Shown here one piece after another: positions 1-19,024 of a stretch of DNA of 40,126 bases. Made by a program: the position numbers and the translations under genes. The DNA lies in assembly GCA_003024985.2 (NCBI GenBank), contig PXIH01S0002695.1. The stretch is one strand, 5' to 3'. The stretch is from Euperipatoides rowelli (lineage: Eukaryota > Onychophora > Udeonychophora > Euonychophora > Peripatopsidae). Each line of letters opens with the position of its first letter. The stretch's first letter is position 1. Under the pieces are notes generated by a model, which was not told the DNA's origin, searched no databases, and was given only the letters and a program-made list of their open reading frames with translations.

Positions 1-1048
1 TTTATTCTTTAAAGGGTTTTTAAAAGTTGATTTGGTAGAAAAACAAAGTACTTGTATTTTTGCTTATGATAATTTTCTGATATTTGAAGGTGCTATTTAT
101 AATTTCATATATTCCAACTTTTATAGTATTTCACTTAATTTTTCTATGGAACCTTTGGAATATTTGATTACTCAAATTAAAAGTGATTATTACATTTTTT
201 TAAAATTATTTAAAAGGTTAGACTCTAAAAATTGTCTTATGAAAAAATCAAGCTCTAGAAATCTCAAAAAAGATAATATGATTTTCGATTTTTTATATAA
301 AGGTACTGGTTTTTCGTTTATTAACAGCATTGTAGAAAACTCTCTTAAAAATCAATTTGTCACTTTTAGTTATTATAAAAATAAGTTAGAGGTTTTATTG
401 CCTTACAGAATAATTGATAATAGCTTAGCAAATTATTTGAAAAACAACCTTGCTCAGGAATTTAATTTAGCTTATGAAGATATAGATTTTATATTAAATG
501 AAGAAGAACGTAGTGATAGAAATAAACTTAAATTTGAACTAGTTAAGGAAACTTACTTCATTGAAAAGGCTGTTTGTAACTTGAGAGATAAAATTAAAAT
601 TAATTTGGATAATGGTTTAAATGCTTATCCTTTAGTGATGACAGAAATGTTAGATAAAAAAGGAAACAATGCTGTAGCATGTTTTGTTGACATTGAAATA
701 AATATTAATCCTGCTAAGATTATTTTAAAAAATGCAAGTTTTTTGTTAGAACAAGGAAAACTTACCAAACTTAAGATAAATAATAAAAGAATATATACAA
801 TCTTAAAGTCAGCTTTGGAATATATTTCTAATGATAATTTTTCTATTTTGCATGAAAATTTAAATTGCATTAATGTTGAATTTTTACAAGATGGTGATTT
901 TCTTTTTTCATATAGAGTTTTATTTATTGCAGCTGTAGCTGCAATAAAAGCTGCGTTAATTCAAGCTTTTCATTTTGATATTTATAGTACGCCAATTGAC
1001 TTTAAGCAACTTTTAATTGATTGGAGTGTTTCTATAGATGTTAATTAA
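1..1048 (+). CDS. Molybdopterin-subunit-like protein of the xanthine dehydrogenase family, 5' end outside window
   Basis: The reading frame is open to base 1, so the TTG at 32 is probably internal and the gene starts before the window. What remains (about 348 residues) matches the order of landmarks in the C-terminal half of xanthine dehydrogenase large subunits. Numbering from the TTG: a DPLEFR-like segment (SMEPLEYL, 38-45); a glycine-rich strand (YKGTGFSF, 89-96); the 'AEELGVPVEDV'-like segment (AQEFNLAYEDIDFIL, 141-155) followed by an acidic stretch; and, near the end, the 'AAPPAIANAI..ATG..I...P' pattern (VAAIKAALIQAFHFDIYSTPID). The glycines and acidic residues that bind the cofactor in active enzymes are largely gone, so catalysis is doubtful. 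It overlaps the next gene by 11 bases, and the two following genes resemble the other two subunits of the same enzyme. The family call is my pattern reading and was not checked by a search. It corresponds by position to BB0554. Confidence 0.6.
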   Translation, partial: LFFKGFLKVDLVEKQSTCIFAYDNFLIFEGAIYNFIYSNFYSISLNFSMEPLEYLITQIKSDYYIFLKLFKRLDSKNCLMKKSSSRNLKKDNMIFDFLYKGTGFSFINSIVENSLKNQFVTFSYYKNKLEVLLPYRIIDNSLANYLKNNLAQEFNLAYEDIDFILNEEERSDRNKLKFELVKETYFIEKAVCNLRDKIKINLDNGLNAYPLVMTEMLDKKGNNAVACFVDIEININPAKIILKNASFLLEQGKLTKLKINNKRIYTILKSALEYISNDNFSILHENLNCINVEFLQDGDFLFSYRVLFIAAVAAIKAALIQAFHFDIYSTPIDFKQLLIDWSVSIDVN

Positions 1049-1502
1049 TTTTGCCTTAAATGGAAAAAATGGTTCTAGTAATGTAACTTGTGAGTTAAAT
1101 GCTTCCAAATTTCTTAAGGATATTCTAGGTTTTAGTGTACAAGATTTAATGTTGAGAAATATTGGTAATTTCTCTTTAATATTACTTGATTTTAAGCCTG
1201 TATATTCTTTGCTTATTCCTGCTTTTATGCTCAATAATAGGCAAATAATAACTTTAGCTGGTGTTAAGCATACAAGTTTTTATAAGAATATGATTGATAT
1301 TTTGTTAAAAGAAGACTTTAATTTTTGTGAGCATTGCTTTGAAGCAAATATTCTAACTTTTTATTTTTTTTTAAAAAACAAAATGGTAATCAGAATGGAT
1401 ATGTTAAGTTATTATAATAGCTCTAAATGTAATTGCATAGATCTTAATACTTTTCTAGCAATATATTCTAAAATAGAAAGTGTAAATAATCAAGATGAAT
1501 AA
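1038..1502 (+). CDS. Small [2Fe-2S]-subunit-like protein of the xanthine dehydrogenase family, one cluster motif lost
   Basis: This 154-residue protein has the usual length of CoxS/XdhC-type iron-sulphur subunits (about 155-165). The N-terminus (INFALNGK) resembles the opening beta strand of the ferredoxin-like domain. Residues 42-62 (IGNFSLILLDFKPVYSLLIPA) follow the family pattern CGACTVLLDG-PVNSCLVPA, but all the cysteines of the plant-type cluster are replaced by I, F, L and others. The second, helical cluster motif is still visible: C97-x2-C100 (FCEHCFEA), then C131-x-C133 (KCNCIDLNTF), at about the expected spacing and matching 'QCGFCTPG' and 'CRCTGY'. I infer a protein that may still bind one [2Fe-2S] cluster. 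The ATG lies inside the end of the upstream gene, and the end overlaps the next ATG by 8 bases, so translation is probably coupled. It matches BB0555 by position. Confidence 0.65.
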   Translation: MLINFALNGKNGSSNVTCELNASKFLKDILGFSVQDLMLRNIGNFSLILLDFKPVYSLLIPAFMLNNRQIITLAGVKHTSFYKNMIDILLKEDFNFCEHCFEANILTFYFFLKNKMVIRMDMLSYYNSSKCNCIDLNTFLAIYSKIESVNNQDE

Positions 1503-2358
1503 TTTAAACGTATATTATCCTAAGAATACTAATTTAATTTCTAACTTTTACGTTAAGGAAAATGAGAATTATATAATTTATAACGAACTTGATTTTAGAG
1601 AAAATTATGATAACTTTACTAGTAATGATAATTCTAAGAATATTTTCATAATTTTTAACTTGACTAAGTTGAAATTAATATGCTTTAAAGGTAATTTTCT
1701 AGAAATAGGAGCTTGTGTGACTTACAATGAAATGCTAGAATTTGGTGAGAAAAATCTTCCAAAAATACTATATAAATTTATTGGATATTTTAATAATAAA
1801 ATATTGTTAAATATTATTAATGTAGCAAATGGGTTTTATCATAAAGATACTGCTTTTGATATTTATCCTATTTTGCATAGCCTTAATGTTTTTCTTGAGT
1901 TTAAGGATATTAAAACTAAAAAAACTACAGTTGTAAGTGTTTGTGATATTAATAGGAAAGAATACATAGCAAGTAAAAATAAAGAAATTTTAACTAAAAT
2001 AAAAGTACCAATTGCGAATTTTGGCAATAGAAGTTATTACGCTAGGATATTTTTTGATGATTGGGACTATGAATTTTTGGCAACAGAAAGATTAATGTTT
2101 ATTTGTATATTATCAAATATACATAAGGAAGTTATTAATGGATTTTTAATTAAAATATTTTATGCGGATAAGATTTTTATTATGAAGGATACCCAACTAC
2201 TGTTATTTAATAAGACTCTTCCTTTGTCTTACTCAGAAATTAAAAATTCTTTAAACCTTTTAGAACTTAGGCTTTTTGATTTTAAAAGTTTTCAAATTAA
2301 TGATAAGAATTTAAAATTAATAAAAAATTTTTATTTAAATGTTTTAGTTAACTTATGA
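1495..2358 (+). CDS. FAD-domain-like subunit of the xanthine dehydrogenase family, degenerate
   Basis: The 287 residues match the usual size of CoxM/XdhB-type FAD subunits. Residues 66-80 (GNFLEIGACVTYNEM) are a close fit to the 'L-IGA-VT--EL' strand and turn of this family. Residues 109-136 (NVANGFYHKDTAFDIYPILHSLNVFLEF) follow the 'R-GTIGGN--...SD--P-LLALDA-V' segment, but the glycine pair that holds the FAD diphosphate is altered (ANG for GGN). The N-terminal AGGTDL motif cannot be recognised. The C-terminal half is Phe/Asn/Lys-rich and shows no further motif. FAD binding is therefore uncertain. The gene starts inside the end of the upstream subunit gene and closes the operon; about 140 bases then separate it from ptsH. 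It matches BB0556 by position. The family call rests on motif order and on the two neighbours. Confidence 0.6.
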   Translation: MNNLNVYYPKNTNLISNFYVKENENYIIYNELDFRENYDNFTSNDNSKNIFIIFNLTKLKLICFKGNFLEIGACVTYNEMLEFGEKNLPKILYKFIGYFNNKILLNIINVANGFYHKDTAFDIYPILHSLNVFLEFKDIKTKKTTVVSVCDINRKEYIASKNKEILTKIKVPIANFGNRSYYARIFFDDWDYEFLATERLMFICILSNIHKEVINGFLIKIFYADKIFIMKDTQLLLFNKTLPLSYSEIKNSLNLLELRLFDFKSFQINDKNLKLIKNFYLNVLVNL

Positions 2359-2417
2359 GCTATAATTTAGACTTAACTAAAAATAATATTAATAAATTAT
2401 TGTTTTTTGTTTCTTTG

Positions 2418-2448
2418 TTGATATAATGATTTTGTTAAGTGTTATAAT
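2418..2448 (+). promoter_or_regulatory. Candidate sigma70-type promoter for ptsH-ptsI-crr
   Basis: A perfect TATAAT lies at 2443-2448. The nearest -35-like hexamer is TTGATA at 2418-2423, giving a long spacer of 19. A second TATAAT at 2422-2427 pairs with TTGTTT at 2400-2405 (spacer 16). Either would give a short 5' leader before the ptsH Shine-Dalgarno sequence (GGGAG, just upstream of 2497). Confidence 0.45.
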
Positions 2449-2496
2449 AGAAATCTATGATTATTTACTTTCAAAATAGGTAAAAAAGGGAGAATT

Positions 2497-2757
2497 ATGG
2501 TAACAAGAGATGCAATTATAAAATCAAAAAATGGCTTACATGTTAGGCCAGCATCGTTATTTATAAAAAAAGCTAAAGAATATGACAGTGAAATATCAAT
2601 AGAATCTAATGGCAAGTCTGTTAATGGGAAAAGTTTGTTTAAATTGCAAACTTTAGAGCTATCATTAGGTACAAAGCTAGTCATTAGCGCTGATGGATCT
2701 GATGAGGAGTTAGCAGTTGAAGAGCTTAAGACTTTAATAGAATCATTTGAAGAATAA
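2497..2757 (+). CDS. ptsH: Phosphocarrier protein HPr
   Basis: HPr carries the phosphoryl group from enzyme I to the sugar-specific IIA proteins of the phosphotransferase system in the cytosol. The 86 residues are full length for HPr. The active-site segment NGLHVRPAS places the phosphorylated histidine at residue 15. The regulatory serine found in many HPr proteins has an equivalent at Ser46 (NGKSLFKLQ), although nothing in this window shows that an HPr kinase exists. The start is fixed by a strong ribosome site (AAAAAGGGAG) ahead of the ATG. It is the first gene of a ptsH-ptsI-crr operon, 17 bases before ptsI, and matches BB0557 by position. Confidence 0.96.
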   Translation: MVTRDAIIKSKNGLHVRPASLFIKKAKEYDSEISIESNGKSVNGKSLFKLQTLELSLGTKLVISADGSDEELAVEELKTLIESFEE

Positions 2758-2774
2758 AAAGTAAAGGATTTGAC

Positions 2775-4511
2775 ATGAGATTGTCTGGTGTAAGAATATC
2801 AAAAGGGTTAGGGATAGGTTCAGCTCTTTTTATAAAAAAAGATTTTAATTCTATGTTAAGTGAATCTAAAATACCTATTTCTGAAATAGAAGGTGAAATA
2901 AAAAAATTTCATCAAGCCAAAGATAACGCTATTAACGTTTTAAATAACCTAATTAGGAAGACTATTGCAGATTTAGGTAAGGATAAAGAAGGAATTTTTG
3001 AAGGACAAGTCTTGATTATTGAAGATGAAGAACTTGATGCTTCTGTTAGAGATTTTATAGAAAATAAGCATTATAATGCTCCGTATGCTGTTCATAAGGC
3101 ATTTGAAGAGATGATTGAAATAATTGAGAGTCACAAAGATGTTTACTTACGGGAACGTGCAACAGACTTTAAAGATGTAAGAAATAGACTTGTTTCTATG
3201 CTCTTAGGGGCCATTACTGATTTTTCAGGGGTAGATAGAGATGTTATTCTTATTACGGATGAACTTGCTCCTTCAGATACTATGCAAGTGGATTTGTCTT
3301 ATGTAAAGGGTTTTTTAACAACATCTGGTGGTGAGACTTCTCATGCAGCAATTTTAGCAAGAACTATGGCTTTACCAGCAATAGTAATACCAACTTCTGA
3401 TCTTAGTAAGATTAAAAATGAAGACTTAATTATAGTAGATGGCATTAATTCTCTTGTAATTTTAAATCCTACAGAGAATGAATTATCTACTTATAGAGCT
3501 AAATTTAAAAAGGTAAAAGCTAACGAAAGTGAGCTTTTTAGTTTAAAAGATCAACCTACACTCACAAAAGATGGGGTACGTGTGGTATTAAAATCTAATA
3601 TTGGTACTTTAAGTGATATTGAGTATGTAAATAAATATGGTGGGGAAGGAGTTGGACTTTTTAGGACAGAATTTTTGTATATGGAAACTCAGCAACCACC
3701 TAGCGAAGATGAACAATTCAATGTTTATAAAAGTGTTTTAGAAAGTTTAGAAAAGAAAAATAGTGTTATAATTAGAACGCTTGATATTGGGGGTGATAAA
3801 AAGGTTCCTTATCTTAGACTGCCAAGAGAAGAAAATCCTTTCTTAGGGTATCGTGCTTTAAGAATTTATAAAGATTATGAGAAATTAATGCAAACTCAAT
3901 TTAATGCAATTTTTAGAGCTAGTCATTATGGTGCTGTTAAAATAATGATTCCTATGTTGACAAAATATGAGGAGCTTGAACTAGTTGAATATTTTGTAGA
4001 AGAAGCTAAAAAAAGTTTAAGGGCAAGAAATTTGCCTTTTGATGATAATTTGGAGCTTGGATGTATGATTGAAGTCCCTTCTTCGGCTTTATTAGTTAAG
4101 CAACTTGCTAAGAAGTTAAAATTTTTTAGTATAGGAACCAATGATTTAACGCAATATGTCTTGGCAGTTGATCGTGGAAATCAAAAAATAGCTGATCTTT
4201 ATGATAAATATAATCCTTCTGTTTTGAAAGTAATAAAATATGTATTGGATCAGGCAAATGAAGTGGGTGTCACTGTGTCTGTTTGTGGAGAACTTGGTGG
4301 TGATGAAGGAGGAGCCCTTATTCTTGTAGGATTGGGATGTAGGTCTCTAAGTATGGTTCCCAATGTATCTTTAAGAATTAAATATTTACTTAAAAAGTAT
4401 ACAATAAAAGAACTTAATGATTTAGCACTTCGTGTTTTGAATAGTGAAACAGAATTAGAAACGTTGAAATATATAGAAGAAATGATAGGAGATAGATATG
4501 GGATTATTTAG
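2775..4511 (+). CDS. ptsI: PTS enzyme I (phosphoenolpyruvate-protein phosphotransferase)
   Basis: Enzyme I takes phosphate from PEP and passes it to HPr. The 578 residues are typical length. The N-terminal HPr-binding region is followed by the phosphohistidine segment GGETSHAAILAR with His190. The C-terminal PEP-binding barrel shows FRTEFLYM, the magnesium/PEP-site segment SIGTNDLTQYVLAVDR and the catalytic cysteine in SVCGELGGDEGG. All key residues are present, so the enzyme should be active. The ribosome site AAAGGA precedes the ATG. The 3' end overlaps the start of crr by 14 bases, which suggests coupled translation. It matches BB0558 by position. Confidence 0.97.
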   Translation: MRLSGVRISKGLGIGSALFIKKDFNSMLSESKIPISEIEGEIKKFHQAKDNAINVLNNLIRKTIADLGKDKEGIFEGQVLIIEDEELDASVRDFIENKHYNAPYAVHKAFEEMIEIIESHKDVYLRERATDFKDVRNRLVSMLLGAITDFSGVDRDVILITDELAPSDTMQVDLSYVKGFLTTSGGETSHAAILARTMALPAIVIPTSDLSKIKNEDLIIVDGINSLVILNPTENELSTYRAKFKKVKANESELFSLKDQPTLTKDGVRVVLKSNIGTLSDIEYVNKYGGEGVGLFRTEFLYMETQQPPSEDEQFNVYKSVLESLEKKNSVIIRTLDIGGDKKVPYLRLPREENPFLGYRALRIYKDYEKLMQTQFNAIFRASHYGAVKIMIPMLTKYEELELVEYFVEEAKKSLRARNLPFDDNLELGCMIEVPSSALLVKQLAKKLKFFSIGTNDLTQYVLAVDRGNQKIADLYDKYNPSVLKVIKYVLDQANEVGVTVSVCGELGGDEGGALILVGLGCRSLSMVPNVSLRIKYLLKKYTIKELNDLALRVLNSETELETLKYIEEMIGDRYGII

Positions 4512-4983: not shown

Positions 4984-5015
4984 AAAAAGAAGAATAATCT
5001 TATTCTTCTTTTTTT
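4982..5015. terminator. Bidirectional terminator between crr and htpG
   Basis: The stem is 15 bp and perfect: 4982-4996 pairs with 5001-5015 around the loop ATCT. An A-run on one side and a T-run on the other give a U-tract in both transcription directions, so it can stop crr from the left and htpG from the right. The htpG stop codon (5000-5002 on the minus strand) lies inside the hairpin. Confidence 0.88.
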
Positions 5016-6862
5016 ATTGTTTTTTCTATAATTTCATTTAGAATTTTAATAAATCTTGTAGGATTTTTGCTTGGAATTCCAGAAGTTATTATAGCTTCTT
5101 CGAAAAGTATTAGGCTAATTTTCTCTAAGTTTTCACTATCTAAGTTTTTTAAGTTTTGAACTATTTTATTGTTTGGATTTAGCTCAAGGATAGGTTTTAT
5201 TTCTTTTACTTCTTGTCCCATTGACATCATGATCTTTTGCATTTGATAAGTTGGGTCTTTATCATCTATAATGATAGTTGAAGGTTCTAGTATTAAGGTA
5301 GGAGATAATTTTACTTCTTTTACATAATTTTTTAAATTTTCTTGAACTTTTGCAAGTATTTTTTCAAATTCCTTTTCTTTTGCTTTGAAAGTGTCATCTT
5401 TTAATTCATTACTAGTTTCACTTTTATGAATAGCCTTTAGTTTTATTTCTTTAAACTGTTATATAAAACTTAAAATAGCTTCATCAAGTTCATCGTCCAT
5501 AATTAAGACTTCATAATTCTGAGCTTCATAAGCAGCTACTAAAGGATTGGCTTTTAGTATATGATCTTTACCACCTGTTATGTAATATATACTTTTTTGG
5601 TTTTCTGTCATCCTGTCTTTATATTCACTAAGTCCCACAAAACCTTCTTTTCTTGAAGATTTAAACCGTATAAGAGAAATTAGTTTTTCACGATTATCAA
5701 AATCAGAATAAATCCCTTCTTTTAGACATCTTCCAAATTCTTTTGAAAATTCATCAAATTTAATGGAATCTTTTGTACTTAACGTTTCAAGTTCATTTAA
5801 TATTTTTTTAACAGAGGCTAACTTTATTTTTGCTAGGGTTTTATTATGTTGCAAAATCTCTCTGCTTACATTTAAAGGTAAATCTGTACAGTCAATGATT
5901 CCTTTAATGAATCTTAGATAACTTGGTAAAATATCTTTATCATCATCTGTTATGAAGACTTTATTAATGTAAAGCTTAACACCTAATTTTGAGTTTGGAT
6001 GATACAAGTCATAGGAAGCTTTTTTAGGAATATAAAATAGTGTTGTATATTCAAGACTGCCCTCTGCTTTTGTGTGGATATGTATTAGGGGATTTTCAAA
6101 GTCGTAGGATATGCTTTTATAGAAGTTAGTATATTCTTCTTCTGTTATATCTTTTTTAGATTTAGTCCAAGTAGCTTGAGATTCATTTACTTGCTCTACT
6201 TTTTTTTCTGTTCCTTCTTCTTTGCCTTGACTGTCTATTTTAGGTTGTGTGTAAGTAATGAAAATAGGATATGTAATATGATTAGAGTATTTTTTTATAA
6301 CCTCTTCGATTTTCCATTTACTTGTATATTCAAGACCTTCATTGTTTAAGTGAAGTTTTATTTCTGTTCCAAAATCTTCTTTTTTTGTCTCTTCAATCTC
6401 ATAACCACTCTTTCCATCACTTGTCCATACATATGCAATGTCTTCTCCTATTTTTTTTGTTTTTACTTCAATTTTTGAGGCTACTATGAATGCACTGTAG
6501 AATCCTACACCAAATTGTCCAATTAAATTCATAGTACTTTTATTTTCAGATTTTAAGTTTTTTAAGAATTCTTTAGTGCCAGATTTTGCTATTACTCCAA
6601 GGTTGTTAATAAGATCATCTTGATTCATTCCAATGCCGTTGTCTTTTATTGTAATGCTTTCTTTATCAAAACTTATGTCAATCTTTGGTTCTAAGCTAAA
6701 GTTTTTAAATTTTTCTTCTGTTAGTGTTAAAAACTTTAACTTATCAATAGCATCAGAAGAATTTGAAGTTAATTCTCTTAAGAATATTTCTTTATGTGAA
6801 TACAGCGAATGGATGATTAAATAAAGTAGCTCACTAATTTCTGTATCAAATTGTTTTGTCAT
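5000..6862 (-). pseudogene. htpG: htpG (Hsp90 chaperone) interrupted by an in-frame TAA
   Basis: HtpG is the bacterial Hsp90, a cytosolic ATP-dependent dimeric chaperone. From the ATG at 6862 (Shine-Dalgarno AAGGAG) 467 codons are open. They include the ATPase domain with KDNGIGMN and the lid/Walker-like segment LIGQFGVGFYSAFIV, and most of the middle domain. A TAA then occurs at 5459-5461, directly after the residues DEAILSFI. The same frame continues without any shift for another 152 codons to a normal stop at 5000, and that part is clearly the HtpG C-terminal dimerisation domain (for example LELNPNNKIVQ). The uninterrupted length would be 620 residues, normal for the family. As written, the product lacks the end of the middle domain and the whole dimerisation domain, so it should not work as Hsp90. 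A sequencing error or a strain-specific nonsense mutation are the two explanations. It matches BB0560 by position. Confidence 0.9.
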
Positions 6863-6892
6863 TAAATTTCTCCTTATATTAAATTATTAATT

Positions 6893-8386: not shown

Positions 8387-8926
8387 TCAAATATAGTACT
8401 TAATGAAAATCCCTCCTAAGATGTTTATCTTAAATCCTTGATATAGTTGATTGTTAATTAAAGATGATGGAATTGAAATGAATAAAAATGAAGGAGCTAA
8501 CTTGCATCCAAATTCAATATTACTTGTAAGATCATAAAAAATTGCAATAGGAACTCTTAGTCCAGTGCCTAATTCCACATTTTCCATTTTTGAATCCATT
8601 GACGAAATACTAGCTTCGATTCCAAAACCAAATCCAAGGTCTAGTTTTTCAATTAAGGATATGGTGCAAATTAAATCTATTGCAAAATTTACAAATAAAT
8701 TCAAATCATAAATTTTATTTACTAATTTGTTGCCTGACAAGTTAATACCATTTGTGCCCCCATAACCAAGTTCTACATCAACATAAGGAAAAGACATTGC
8801 ATAATATATGATTGGATTACCAATTCCTATACCAAATCCTATATTCCTGTCTATATAAGAATTTCTTGAAAATGACAATGAATAAGTAAGTAACATTAAT
8901 ATTATTTTAACTAACGTTTTTTGCAT
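8387..8926 (-). CDS. Small exported protein, probable outer-membrane beta barrel
   Basis: The protein has 179 residues. A signal peptide is visible (MQKTLVKIILMLLTYSLSFS, then RNSY). The mature part is rich in glycine and alternating hydrophobic strands (IGFGIGIGNPIIYYAMSFPY, LDLGFGFGIEASI, INILGGIFIKYYI), as in small beta barrels. It is similar in layout to the next upstream gene product (9188-9697): both have FGIG near the mature start, a 'LG.G...G.RVPIAI/PMAI' strand and a glycine-rich end, so I take them as paralogues. From memory they recall the Borrelia BB0405/BB0406-type outer-membrane family, but I cannot confirm this. A ribosome site AAAGGAT precedes the ATG. No enzymatic motif is seen. 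It matches BB0562 by position. Confidence 0.8.
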   Translation of the reverse strand: MQKTLVKIILMLLTYSLSFSRNSYIDRNIGFGIGIGNPIIYYAMSFPYVDVELGYGGTNGINLSGNKLVNKIYDLNLFVNFAIDLICTISLIEKLDLGFGFGIEASISSMDSKMENVELGTGLRVPIAIFYDLTSNIEFGCKLAPSFLFISIPSSLINNQLYQGFKINILGGIFIKYYI

Positions 8927-9187: not shown

Positions 9188-9697
9188 TTAAGAGATCCAT
9201 GCTCTAAACCCAAGTCCTGTAAATACATCCCAACTAAAGTAAACCTGGTTACCGCAGTTTAATCCGATTCCAGGTGCAATTTTTAAGAAAACATCGAATT
9301 TCCCTCTTACTAAAGCAAAATTAATTGCCATAGGTACTCTAATTCCTAATGTTACAGCTCCTCCTAGTACTGAACCTTTAAATCTTGAGAACCAAACATA
9401 GGAATATATTCCTGTTCCTACAGACAAGTCTAGAAAATTTATATTACCAGAAAGTGTATATGTATATATTATAAAGTCAACTGCTATGAACAATGTTGTC
9501 CAGTCTTGAAATAAATTTGCTTGTCCTGCATATAGTCCTATGTCTATGTCAAGCATCTTAAAACTCAGTCCTAGTACCATTGGAAATGGTAGTGAGACTC
9601 CTATTCCAAAATTTTCTCTAGCTTGCACTATTGATTCTTTAGAAAAGACTGAATTGACAACTAACATAAATAATATTAAAATTAATTTTTTCCTCAT
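9188..9697 (-). CDS. Small exported protein, probable outer-membrane beta barrel (paralogue)
   Basis: The protein has 169 residues. The signal peptide is MRKKLILILFMLVVNSVFSK, with likely cleavage after VFS. The mature chain contains repeated amphipathic glycine-rich strands (NFGIGVSLPFPMVLGLSF, LDLSVGTGIYSYVWF, GAVTLGIRVPMAINFAL, PGIGLNCG) that fit a small beta barrel. The overall pattern parallels the gene at 8387-8926 and suggests an old tandem duplication. The ATG is preceded by AAGAGGG on the minus strand. The promoter appears to be TTAACG-17-TATAAT at 9716-9744. It lies divergently from the chemotaxis operon. Function is unknown. It matches BB0563 by position. Confidence 0.8.
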   Translation of the reverse strand: MRKKLILILFMLVVNSVFSKESIVQARENFGIGVSLPFPMVLGLSFKMLDIDIGLYAGQANLFQDWTTLFIAVDFIIYTYTLSGNINFLDLSVGTGIYSYVWFSRFKGSVLGGAVTLGIRVPMAINFALVRGKFDVFLKIAPGIGLNCGNQVYFSWDVFTGLGFRAWIS

Positions 9698-13051: not shown

Positions 13052-14230
13052 ATGAAGGTCTTAATATTAGATAATCAAGGATTATTAAAACAAATTTTTA
13101 TAAAAGCCTTTGCTAAGGATAATGAGGTTGAGTTTCTTAATCTTGTTATTAATCCTATAACCCTTATTAATATTTTCATGCAAAAGTTCCCAGATGTAGT
13201 AATACTTAATGAAGCAACAGCGAAGTCAGCTTTTGGTAATTCTTTAAATAATGTTTTAAATACTGTCCATGTTCCTGTTGTTTTCATTGTGGAAGACGAA
13301 GATAATCCTAGGTATGGTTTTCTGTACAGAAATACAAAAAAAGTTAAGTTAATAATAAATAAGTTAAATTTTAAATTAACTTTAGATTTATTTAGAAGTG
13401 AAGCCTTAAAAGAGATAAAGAAAGAAATAAAAAAATTAGGTGAGAACAAGTTAAATACGTATTTTGAATTAAAAAAAATAAAAGCACCTGAGATTTCTTC
13501 TCTTAGAACAGGATTAAATGTAGCGACAATAAACAAGGATCAAGAGATCCAAACGCCTAGTTTTTCTAAGAGTTACAAAAGTTCAGATATAAACATTGCA
13601 CCAAAGAATAATCCTGATATAGTTTTACAGTATCAAGGATTAATGAACAGGCATAAAACAAATAGAGTAATATTTGTAGGAGCTTCAACAGGAGGTACAG
13701 AGGCTTTGAGAGTCTTTCTAAGGCCTTTTAAAAAAGATAGTCCTCCAATTGTAATAGTTCAGCATATGCCTGGTGGTTTTACAGCAGCATTTGCTAAAAG
13801 TTTAAATAATGAATGTGAAATTGATGTAAAAGAAGCCACAGATGGAGACATTCTTAGATCAGGTTTGGCTTTAGTTGCTAATGGAGATTATCATTTAGTT
13901 GTAAAATATGGAAATGGCAATTATTTTGTTAAACTGCTATCGGGACCTACAGTTAGTCGTCATAAACCGTCTGTTGATATTTTATTTCGTTCAGCAGCTA
14001 TGTACGCAGGAAAAAATGCAATAGGAATAATGCTTACTGGTATGGGAGATGATGGATCTAGATGTATGCTTGAGATGAAACAGAATGGTTCATATAATGT
14101 AGCACAAGATGAAAAGACATGTGTTGTTTTTGGTATGCCTATGGAAGCTATAAAAGTTGGAGCTATTGATAAGGTTTTGCCTTTATCTCAAATTCCAGAA
14201 TACCTGTTGACTAAGGTGCTGAAAGGTTAA
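13052..14230 (+). CDS. cheB: CheB-type methylesterase with a degenerate receiver (CheB2 position)
   Basis: CheB removes methyl groups from receptor glutamates. The 392 residues have a receiver-like N-terminus, a linker and a full C-terminal esterase domain. The catalytic triad is visible: Ser212 (GASTGGTEAL), His238 (VQHMPGGFTAAF) and Asp334 (LTGMGDDGSR). The receiver looks inactive. The phosphoacceptor position after PDVVIL is Asn53 rather than Asp, the IEMP-like segment is missing, and the acidic pair near the N-terminus is reduced to one Asp (ILDNQG). I infer regulation that does not depend on phosphorylation of CheB itself. The Shine-Dalgarno is weak (AAAGG some 15 bases away). The end is 3 bases before the next gene. 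It matches BB0568 by position. Confidence 0.92.
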   Translation: MKVLILDNQGLLKQIFIKAFAKDNEVEFLNLVINPITLINIFMQKFPDVVILNEATAKSAFGNSLNNVLNTVHVPVVFIVEDEDNPRYGFLYRNTKKVKLIINKLNFKLTLDLFRSEALKEIKKEIKKLGENKLNTYFELKKIKAPEISSLRTGLNVATINKDQEIQTPSFSKSYKSSDINIAPKNNPDIVLQYQGLMNRHKTNRVIFVGASTGGTEALRVFLRPFKKDSPPIVIVQHMPGGFTAAFAKSLNNECEIDVKEATDGDILRSGLALVANGDYHLVVKYGNGNYFVKLLSGPTVSRHKPSVDILFRSAAMYAGKNAIGIMLTGMGDDGSRCMLEMKQNGSYNVAQDEKTCVVFGMPMEAIKVGAIDKVLPLSQIPEYLLTKVLKG

Positions 14231-17665: not shown

Positions 17666-19024
17666 ATGATCATAGAACAAAAATTAAGGAAAAATTTTTA
17701 TAATGATCTAGAAAAATTAGTTAGTATAGAGAGTGTATTAAGTTCTCCAAGGTTAAACAAGCCATTTGGAGAACAAATTGATAAAGTATTAGACGAAACA
17801 TTAAATATTTGTGAAGAAATAGGATTTAAAGTTCATAAAGATGTAGATGGTTTTTATGGTTTTGCTGAAATTGGAACTGGGCCAGAACTTATTGGTATAT
17901 TATGTCACTTAGATGTAGTTGGAGTAGGTGATCCTACAAAATGGGATGGCAATCCTTGTAGTTTAAATTTTAAGGAAGGCAAAGTAATAGGGCGAGGTGT
18001 TTTAGATAATAAAGGTCCTACTGTTGCTTGTATACATGCTATTAAACTTCTTATAGAAGAAAAAATTCGTTTTAAGAGAAGATATAGGATCATTTTTGGT
18101 TTATCTGAAGAGACTACCTGGAAATGTATTAAAAGATATAAGCTCCAAGAAGAGCTTCCTATTTTTGCATTTGTTCCAGATTCTAAGTTTCCTGTCACAA
18201 CTGTAGAAAAAGGTCTTGTGAGATTTGATGTTATCTCTAGAACTGACTTAAACCTTGATCTTGAAGTAGGAACTGCATATAACGTAATTCCAGACGAGAG
18301 CTGTTTGCATTTAGAGGGTATTAGGAAAGATGATCTTAGATTGCTTTTAGATGATATACATAAGTATAGGATTAAATATGAGTTTTTAGGAGACAAGATA
18401 TTTTTATATGGATTGTCTGCTCATGCATCAAGACCAGAATTAGCCATAAATGTAGCTAGTTATACTTTAAATCTTTTAAGCAAATTGGGATATAAGGGAG
18501 CAATAATCGACTTTTTTAATGAGAAAATTGGCTTTGACTTGCATGGAGAGAGTTTATTTGGAAAGGTCTTAGGAAATAAAAAAACAGGACCTTTAACAGT
18601 TACCTTAACAAAAATTAAATTTACAAAGAATAAAGTACAAATCTTGTCTTTTGATATGAGAATTCCTGTAGGTTTTGTAAAGGAAGAGTTAGTTTCAAGG
18701 TTAAAAACAGTTTTAAAAGCTTATTGTTTAGATTATTATGAGATATTAGCTTCTAATCCTCTTGAGTTGAGTTCTAAAAGTAAATTTATAACATTGTTGG
18801 TGGATGCTTATAGAGAGATTTCAAAAGATATAAGCAGCATGCCTCAATCTTCCGCTGCTTTAACTTATGCAAGGGCATTAAAAAACTGTGTTGCATTTGG
18901 CCCATGTATTCCTTCAACAAATAGAAGTAGTGTACATCAAGTTAATGAGTATATGTTCGAAAAGGAATTGCTTAATCTTATTTTAATATATAAACATGCG
19001 TTAAAAAAAATAAATTACCAGTAG
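17666..19024 (+). CDS. M20-family dipeptidase (PepV/ArcT-like)
   Basis: This is a zinc-dependent cytosolic dipeptidase of 452 residues, the usual size for PepV-type enzymes. Metal and catalytic residues can be read in order: His81 (CHLDVVGVGDPTKWDGNP), Asp114 (IGRGVLDNKGPT), the Glu pair at 148-149 (GLSEETTWKC), Asp172 (VPDSKFPVTTVEKG) and a C-terminal His (SSVHQVNEYM). A central lid domain is present (about 180-330). Peptidases of this family are found next to arginine deiminase genes in streptococci (arcT), so arcB plus this gene may be a fragment of such an operon, feeding amino acids from imported peptides. No clear Shine-Dalgarno precedes the ATG. The last codons and TAG stop overlap the 3' end of tRNA-Leu on the opposite strand by 9 bases. 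Confidence 0.88.
   Translation: MIIEQKLRKNFYNDLEKLVSIESVLSSPRLNKPFGEQIDKVLDETLNICEEIGFKVHKDVDGFYGFAEIGTGPELIGILCHLDVVGVGDPTKWDGNPCSLNFKEGKVIGRGVLDNKGPTVACIHAIKLLIEEKIRFKRRYRIIFGLSEETTWKCIKRYKLQEELPIFAFVPDSKFPVTTVEKGLVRFDVISRTDLNLDLEVGTAYNVIPDESCLHLEGIRKDDLRLLLDDIHKYRIKYEFLGDKIFLYGLSAHASRPELAINVASYTLNLLSKLGYKGAIIDFFNEKIGFDLHGESLFGKVLGNKKTGPLTVTLTKIKFTKNKVQILSFDMRIPVGFVKEELVSRLKTVLKAYCLDYYEILASNPLELSSKSKFITLLVDAYREISKDISSMPQSSAALTYARALKNCVAFGPCIPSTNRSSVHQVNEYMFEKELLNLILIYKHALKKINYQ

Follow-up and report, generated by a model that had tools for sequence, protein, structure and literature searches.

Replaced cofactor sites in a xanthine dehydrogenase-like operon of a divergent Borrelia suggest that it is no longer a classical molybdenum enzyme

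The Borrelia burgdorferi genes bb0554, bb0555, and bb0556 were among those identified in both peroxide screens of this species, and bb0554 has been noted in print to share limited homology with a CO dehydrogenase subunit. The table of a transposon sequencing (Tn-seq) screen in larval ticks also includes bb0554 and bb0555 (Phelan 2019, PMC6516651), and a 2023 review gives bb_0554-bb_0556 the name 'xdhACB' and describes the encoded xanthine dehydrogenase as contributing to reactive oxygen resistance, with Phelan 2023 (Microbiology 169:001286) and Ramsey 2017 as its sources (PMC10566445). More broadly, a 2018 survey found several hundred organisms in which the molybdenum trait is only partial, most notably as orphan molybdoproteins from the dimethyl sulfoxide reductase (DMSOR) and xanthine oxidase (XO) families; it counted highly similar homologues and detected no feature at the sequence level that marks orphans (PMC6147048). 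Here we describe the corresponding three open reading frames (ORFs), ORF1 to ORF3, at the start of a 40,126-nucleotide window, the whole stretch of DNA analyzed, from contig C759 (PXIH01S0002695.1) of the Euperipatoides rowelli assembly GCA_003024985.2. The identity of this operon as a xanthine dehydrogenase cluster is already known, and what we add is a set of residue-level changes. The replacement of cofactor sites in the trio suggests that it is no longer a classical molybdenum (Mo) enzyme. We lean towards reading the trio as a conserved, probably Mo-free descendant of a molybdenum hydroxylase that has one four-cysteine site left and works in redox-stress tolerance.

A preliminary description of this DNA had read the trio as three adjacent, overlapping genes of the xanthine dehydrogenase family. 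The layout was confirmed, with three plus-strand frames that lack internal stops and overlap by 11 bases (ORF1/ORF2) and 8 bases (ORF2/ORF3). The family assignment held by profile for ORF2, as the [2Fe-2S] iron-sulfur (FeS) subunit, and for ORF3, as the flavin adenine dinucleotide (FAD) subunit, but not for ORF1, which gave no significant match. The lack of a family match for at least two of the three proteins had been named as grounds for abandoning the assignment; ORF2 and ORF3 both matched. The same description held that these genes are normally left as hypothetical, which is outdated, since BB0554-0556 have been published as a xanthine dehydrogenase cluster and relatives of ORF3 carry informative NCBI names: among the nine, four are named 'xanthine dehydrogenase family protein subunit M' and three 'FAD binding domain-containing protein'.

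Reference profiles were built from 20 Mo, 17 FAD, and 16 FeS subunits from E. coli K-12 and plasmid-borne operons, and ORFs were ranked with HMMER in a decoy set of 153 ORFs drawn from the window plus three further contigs. ORF2 came first with the FeS profile (E 4.9e-4) and ORF3 with the FAD profile (E 0.033); an earlier, small FAD profile had given ORF3 an E-value of 0.11 with window decoys. ORF2 had no Pfam match, and its NCBIfam matches, glyceraldehyde dehydrogenase gamma (E=2.2e-4) and pucE (0.012), were both far under the curated cut-offs. ORF3 matched Pfam FAD_binding_5 at E=5.3e-4 and 20.3 bits, against a curated cut-off of 27, and NCBIfam glyceraldehyde dehydrogenase beta (0.0019), xanthine dehydrogenase small subunit (0.013), and an unrelated name (0.053). 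With single ORFs, hhalign ranked ORF3 and ORF2 first by score and ORF1 sixth of 42, and profile-profile hhalign of ORF3 gave a probability of 3% with colinear columns. Alignments to position-specific scoring matrices (PSSMs) compared with shuffles, which had little power, gave z-scores for ORF1, ORF2, and ORF3 of -0.17, -0.11, and -1.25 (overlap) and 1.02, 2.72, and 1.43 (local) in a first run, and -0.07, 1.80, and 2.40 in a second, where other window ORFs scored above all three. A sequence search of solved structures returned no match for ORF1 and, for ORF2 and ORF3, only matches at E-values of at least 0.26, none of them in the xanthine oxidase family, and a protein search with ORF1 and ORF2 found nothing at E ≤ 0.01 (ORF1 was possibly too long for this search). 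Chance resemblance of ORF2 and ORF3 to the xanthine oxidase family was considered and rejected.

In ORF2, the change lies in the cysteines. In a combined alignment, none of the four ferredoxin-type cysteines is present in ORF2, although each occurs in 16/16 reference FeS subunits. The loss can be seen without any alignment, because C18, the single cysteine before C97, is the only one that ORF2 has besides the four of the second cluster. Those four (C97, C100, C131, and C133) are all retained, at columns that are cysteine in every one of the 16 reference proteins. The spacing between the CxxC and CxC halves is 30 residues in ORF2, compared with 31 in 11 references, 33 in one, and 46 in four. 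A pattern of the form C..C-(28 to 45)-C.C arose in 48 of 100,000 shuffles of ORF2 and was found in no other ORF of the 176 scanned, 23 of which were mostly X.

Replacement was also observed in ORF3. All nine of its protein relatives are from Borrelia or Borreliella, and eight are full-length (286-289 amino acids, aa) with 47-52% identity, including Borreliella protein P0001 at 52%; the ninth, P0009 (206 aa, covering 65% of the query), was left out, so the alignment holds ORF3 and eight relatives. Each of these nine proteins matched FAD_binding_5 when scanned singly, and ORF3 aligns over its full length with the reference FAD subunits. An AlphaFold2 model of ORF3 was of low confidence (mean pLDDT, the predicted local distance difference test score, 43.5); of the best 50 among 384 Foldseek matches in PDB at E ≤ 10, the first 43 were of the xanthine oxidase family (xanthine dehydrogenase, aldehyde oxidase, CO dehydrogenase, and related chains), and the other seven were MurB. 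The AGGT and RNxATxGGN loops of FAD subunits are glycine-rich FAD-binding motifs whose glycines contact the FAD diphosphate. In the references, the first loop has A in 15/17, G in 17/17, and G in 16/17 proteins, and the second has R in 15/17, N in 15/17, T in 17/17, and G in 17/17. The Borrelia proteins share none of the three residues in the first loop, and in the second they keep N but have R changed to L and both T and G changed to N (Table 1). These loop changes are evidently old and fixed, because the same replacements occur in all nine Borrelia proteins. By descent, the trio belongs to the xanthine oxidase family, and it is not filed as a functional molybdenum hydroxylase because two of the residue sets tested, the ferredoxin-type cysteines and the FAD loops, have been replaced.

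Table 1. Coordinates of the trio and of its putative cofactor sites in the window
Feature	Position	Strand	Description
ORF1	2..1048	+	348 aa; lacks a start and is cut at the first base of the contig; presumed BB0554 ortholog by position
ORF2	1038..1502	+	154 aa; [2Fe-2S]-subunit homologue; presumed BB0555 ortholog
ORF3	1495..2358	+	287 aa; FAD-subunit (subunit M) homologue; BB0556 ortholog
Ferredoxin-type [2Fe-2S] cysteine region of ORF2	1149..1211	+	M38, G43, S46, L58 at cysteine columns
Four-cysteine site of ORF2	1326..1436	+	C97-x2-C100-x30-C131-x-C133
First FAD-loop position of ORF3	1579..1587	+	family A-G-G replaced by Y29-N30-E31 in 9/9 Borrelia proteins
Second FAD-loop position of ORF3	1807..1833	+	family R-N..T..G is L105-N106..N109..N112 (N kept) in 9/9 Borrelia proteins

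These results bear on whether the trio could still be an oxidoreductase that uses flavin or another cofactor, in which ORF3 would bind flavin through its changed loops and pass electrons to the remaining [2Fe-2S] site without molybdenum. The full-length alignment and the model's match to the FAD-subunit fold fit this idea, and identical new loop residues in every protein are what a functional pocket would be expected to show. However, the glycines that would contact the FAD diphosphate are gone, as is the intermediate cluster of the electron path, and we consider such an enzyme unlikely.

A genuine molybdenum hydroxylase would need the molybdenum cofactor (Moco), and the preliminary description had reported no Moco genes in the window. 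This was borne out for the ORFs scanned, 23 further ones in Pfam and five neighbors in NCBIfam. The Pfam set comprised 22 of the 25 listed ORFs plus 8390-8926; the three listed ORFs left out were two short minus-strand frames, 13075-13536 and 17905-18396, each overlying plus-strand genes that had been scanned, and an extended version of an ORF already in the set. Across the whole 100.9 Mb assembly, there was no match to MoeA_N, Mob_synth_C, XdhC_CoxI, or MoCoBD_1 at E ≤ 0.001, to MoCoBD_2 at E ≤ 1, or to Ald_Xan_dh_C at E ≤ 10. As controls, 14 genomes gave matches in 5 for MoCoBD_1, 6 for MoCoBD_2, 5 for Ald_Xan_dh_C, 11 for MoeA_N, 11 for Mob_synth_C, and 4 for XdhC_CoxI. The silence of MoeA and MoaA supports their absence, because both families are conserved. 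The part of the assembly presumed to be host likewise gave no MoaA or MoeA match; there, intron-split genes could escape detection exon by exon.

A hydroxylase could nevertheless work with cofactor scavenged from the host or the medium. The published name, the screens, and the family-type operon structure agree with this possibility, as does the presence of orphan XO-family molybdoproteins in the 2018 survey (PMC6147048). Against it, the ferredoxin-type cluster is lost, both FAD loops are lost in all nine proteins, and the assembly lacks a match to XdhC_CoxI, MoaA, or MoeA; several of the reference operons, by contrast, have XdhC-family genes beside them. We regard a scavenging hydroxylase as distinctly improbable, and more so than a flavin-based enzyme.

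The preliminary description had left two alternatives, a slowly dying operon or retention for a non-molybdenum role. If the operon were decaying without function, its high divergence (47-52% identity of ORF3 to other Borrelia) and lost cofactor motifs would be expected, and GC (guanine plus cytosine) content at codon positions 1 and 2 of the trio is lower than in ptsI, gnd, and crr. However, all frames are open, the full-length relatives of ORF3 have kept their length, the nine ORF3 proteins agree at 104 of 289 columns, and the B. burgdorferi genes turn up in published screens. The trio proteins appear to evolve fast under AT pressure, without being evidently dead. Decay is disfavored by the intact frames and invariant columns, and we give it only a slight chance; the pure pseudogene reading was rejected. 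Retention for a non-molybdenum role, which we hold as a hypothesis, is the better supported of the two alternatives.

ORF1, the presumed molybdenum subunit, went unrecognized. It had no Pfam match and only weak, unrelated names in NCBIfam. The HMMER profile of 20 Mo subunits placed it third of 153 (E 1.1), which is not significant; a first rank among 42 with window-only decoys (E 0.91 and 0.31) was dropped given its third rank in the larger decoy set. With an 11-protein Mo profile, the best stretch was ORF1 309-338, aligned to the profile's final columns 733-762 at -1.8 bits. A single-sequence model of ORF1 was very poor (pLDDT 35.4), with no xanthine-oxidase-family match among the best 50 of 767 structural matches. 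Searching the assembly with ORF1 found only ORF1 itself, and E. coli XdhA found nothing at E ≤ 10. From its operon position and the published description of BB0554-0556, we infer that ORF1 is a Mo-subunit remnant. The idea that ORF1 is instead an unrelated gene joined to xanthine-oxidase-family ORF2 and ORF3 draws on the lack of a significant profile or fold match, but is as improbable as decay given the operon position, the overlap with ORF2, the weak match of its C-terminus to the last columns of the Mo profile, the limited homology to a CO dehydrogenase subunit published for bb0554, and the weakness of a fold search based on such a model.

Collectively, these findings are consistent with a conserved, Mo-free descendant as the favored explanation. 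The trio's ancestor would be a molybdenum hydroxylase with three subunits, a member of the xanthine oxidase family, and the genus Borrelia would keep it as a protein complex into which the three proteins may assemble. This complex would probably lack Moco and the full electron path through Mo, two [2Fe-2S] clusters, and FAD. The remaining four-cysteine site could hold [2Fe-2S] or a different metal, for example zinc, and act locally in a redox or structural capacity; the complex may protect from oxidative stress in tick and mammal. Borrelia is known for very low iron use. A more specific proposal, which we put forward tentatively and with less confidence than the general one, is that the trio is a genus-wide Mo-free descendant whose multi-cofactor chain has been stripped to a four-cysteine metal site and a remodeled flavin pocket, forming a stress-protection complex.

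Several points weigh against this reading and call for caution. The residue result for ORF2 comes from one sequence, that of the window itself. ORF1 is cut off and unrecognized, which puts its Moco and catalytic residues beyond reach. Changed glycine loops are no proof of FAD loss. That the Mo-subunit families gave no match reflects divergence, not absence, because MoCoBD_2 was silent even though ORF1 is present, and the Borrelia part of the assembly may be incomplete, with several stretches containing runs of N. The literature searched, which did not reach Phelan 2023 or George 2024, held no statement on replaced cofactor sites in this operon. A published title credits B. burgdorferi with a putative xanthine dehydrogenase, and George 2024 is said to deal with bb0556.

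Downstream of the trio lie ptsH, ptsI, crr, htpG (minus strand), and gnd, and we take the trio with ptsH-ptsI-crr-htpG-gnd to be the counterpart of BB0554-BB0561 of B. burgdorferi, the neighbors being BB0557-0561. The htpG gene (5000-6883, minus strand) is broken by an in-frame stop between stop-to-stop frames of 474 aa (5459-6883) and 152 aa (5000-5458), either as a pseudogene or through a sequencing error. Pfam matches elsewhere in the window include chemotaxis genes, ornithine or aspartate carbamoyltransferase, CTP synthase, a heavy-metal ATPase, DNA polymerase III alpha, and RecG, among others. Two neighboring minus-strand DUF3996 genes (8390-8926 and 9191-9697) are probably paralogues.

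The assembly comprises 4324 contigs, and the window is, judging by its proteins, from a divergent Borrelia inside this eukaryote-sized assembly, because the only protein relatives of ORF3 are from Borrelia or Borreliella and the full-length ones are no closer than the identities given above. Genome-contig searches with ORF3 and with PtsI found no relative, and a tblastn search of P0001 against plasmids and phages, together with a viral-contig scan, was empty. Genes resembling rpoB, flaB, and flgKL of Borrelia were found on contigs C154, C76, and C3729, respectively, which presumably come from the same Borrelia as the window. Contig C76 also carries a thyX-like gene near flaB (2227-3084; TIGR02170, E 3e-16, below cut-off); thyX of Borrelia is usually plasmid-borne. 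Contig C776 holds split, eukaryote-like RNA polymerase fragments, and as a whole the data resemble the assembly of a host together with a Borrelia lineage not yet described or sampled.

Published work presents the operon, under a molybdenum-enzyme name, as mattering to B. burgdorferi during oxidative stress and inside its hosts. Should the cofactor sites prove to be gone, the name would be misleading: looking for molybdenum or for oxidation of xanthine would lead nowhere, and the actual function would have to be sought elsewhere. The trio would also illustrate in detail how an enzyme complex can outlive its cofactor, and would provide a sequence-level mark for one orphan molybdoprotein relative, of the kind that the 2018 survey stated it could not find (PMC6147048).

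The closest known system is BB0554-0556 (xdhACB), which shares the three-gene order and the place directly upstream of ptsH-ptsI-crr; the window differs in coming from a divergent Borrelia, and the ORF2 residue losses are known from the window only. Glyceraldehyde oxidoreductase (PDB 4zoh) and CO dehydrogenase (1n60, CoxMSL) likewise have separate FAD, FeS, and Mo subunits and the FAD-subunit fold, and CoxS (L017) has a second-cluster cysteine pattern like that of ORF2. Enzymes of the 4zoh and 1n60 type carry both clusters, FAD, and Moco, whereas the Borrelia trio has the ligands of one cluster and both FAD-loop motifs replaced. Like the orphan molybdoproteins described in the survey, the trio consists of family genes without MoaA or MoeA detected in the assembly, but its homology is remote and its cofactor motifs are visibly replaced (PMC6147048).

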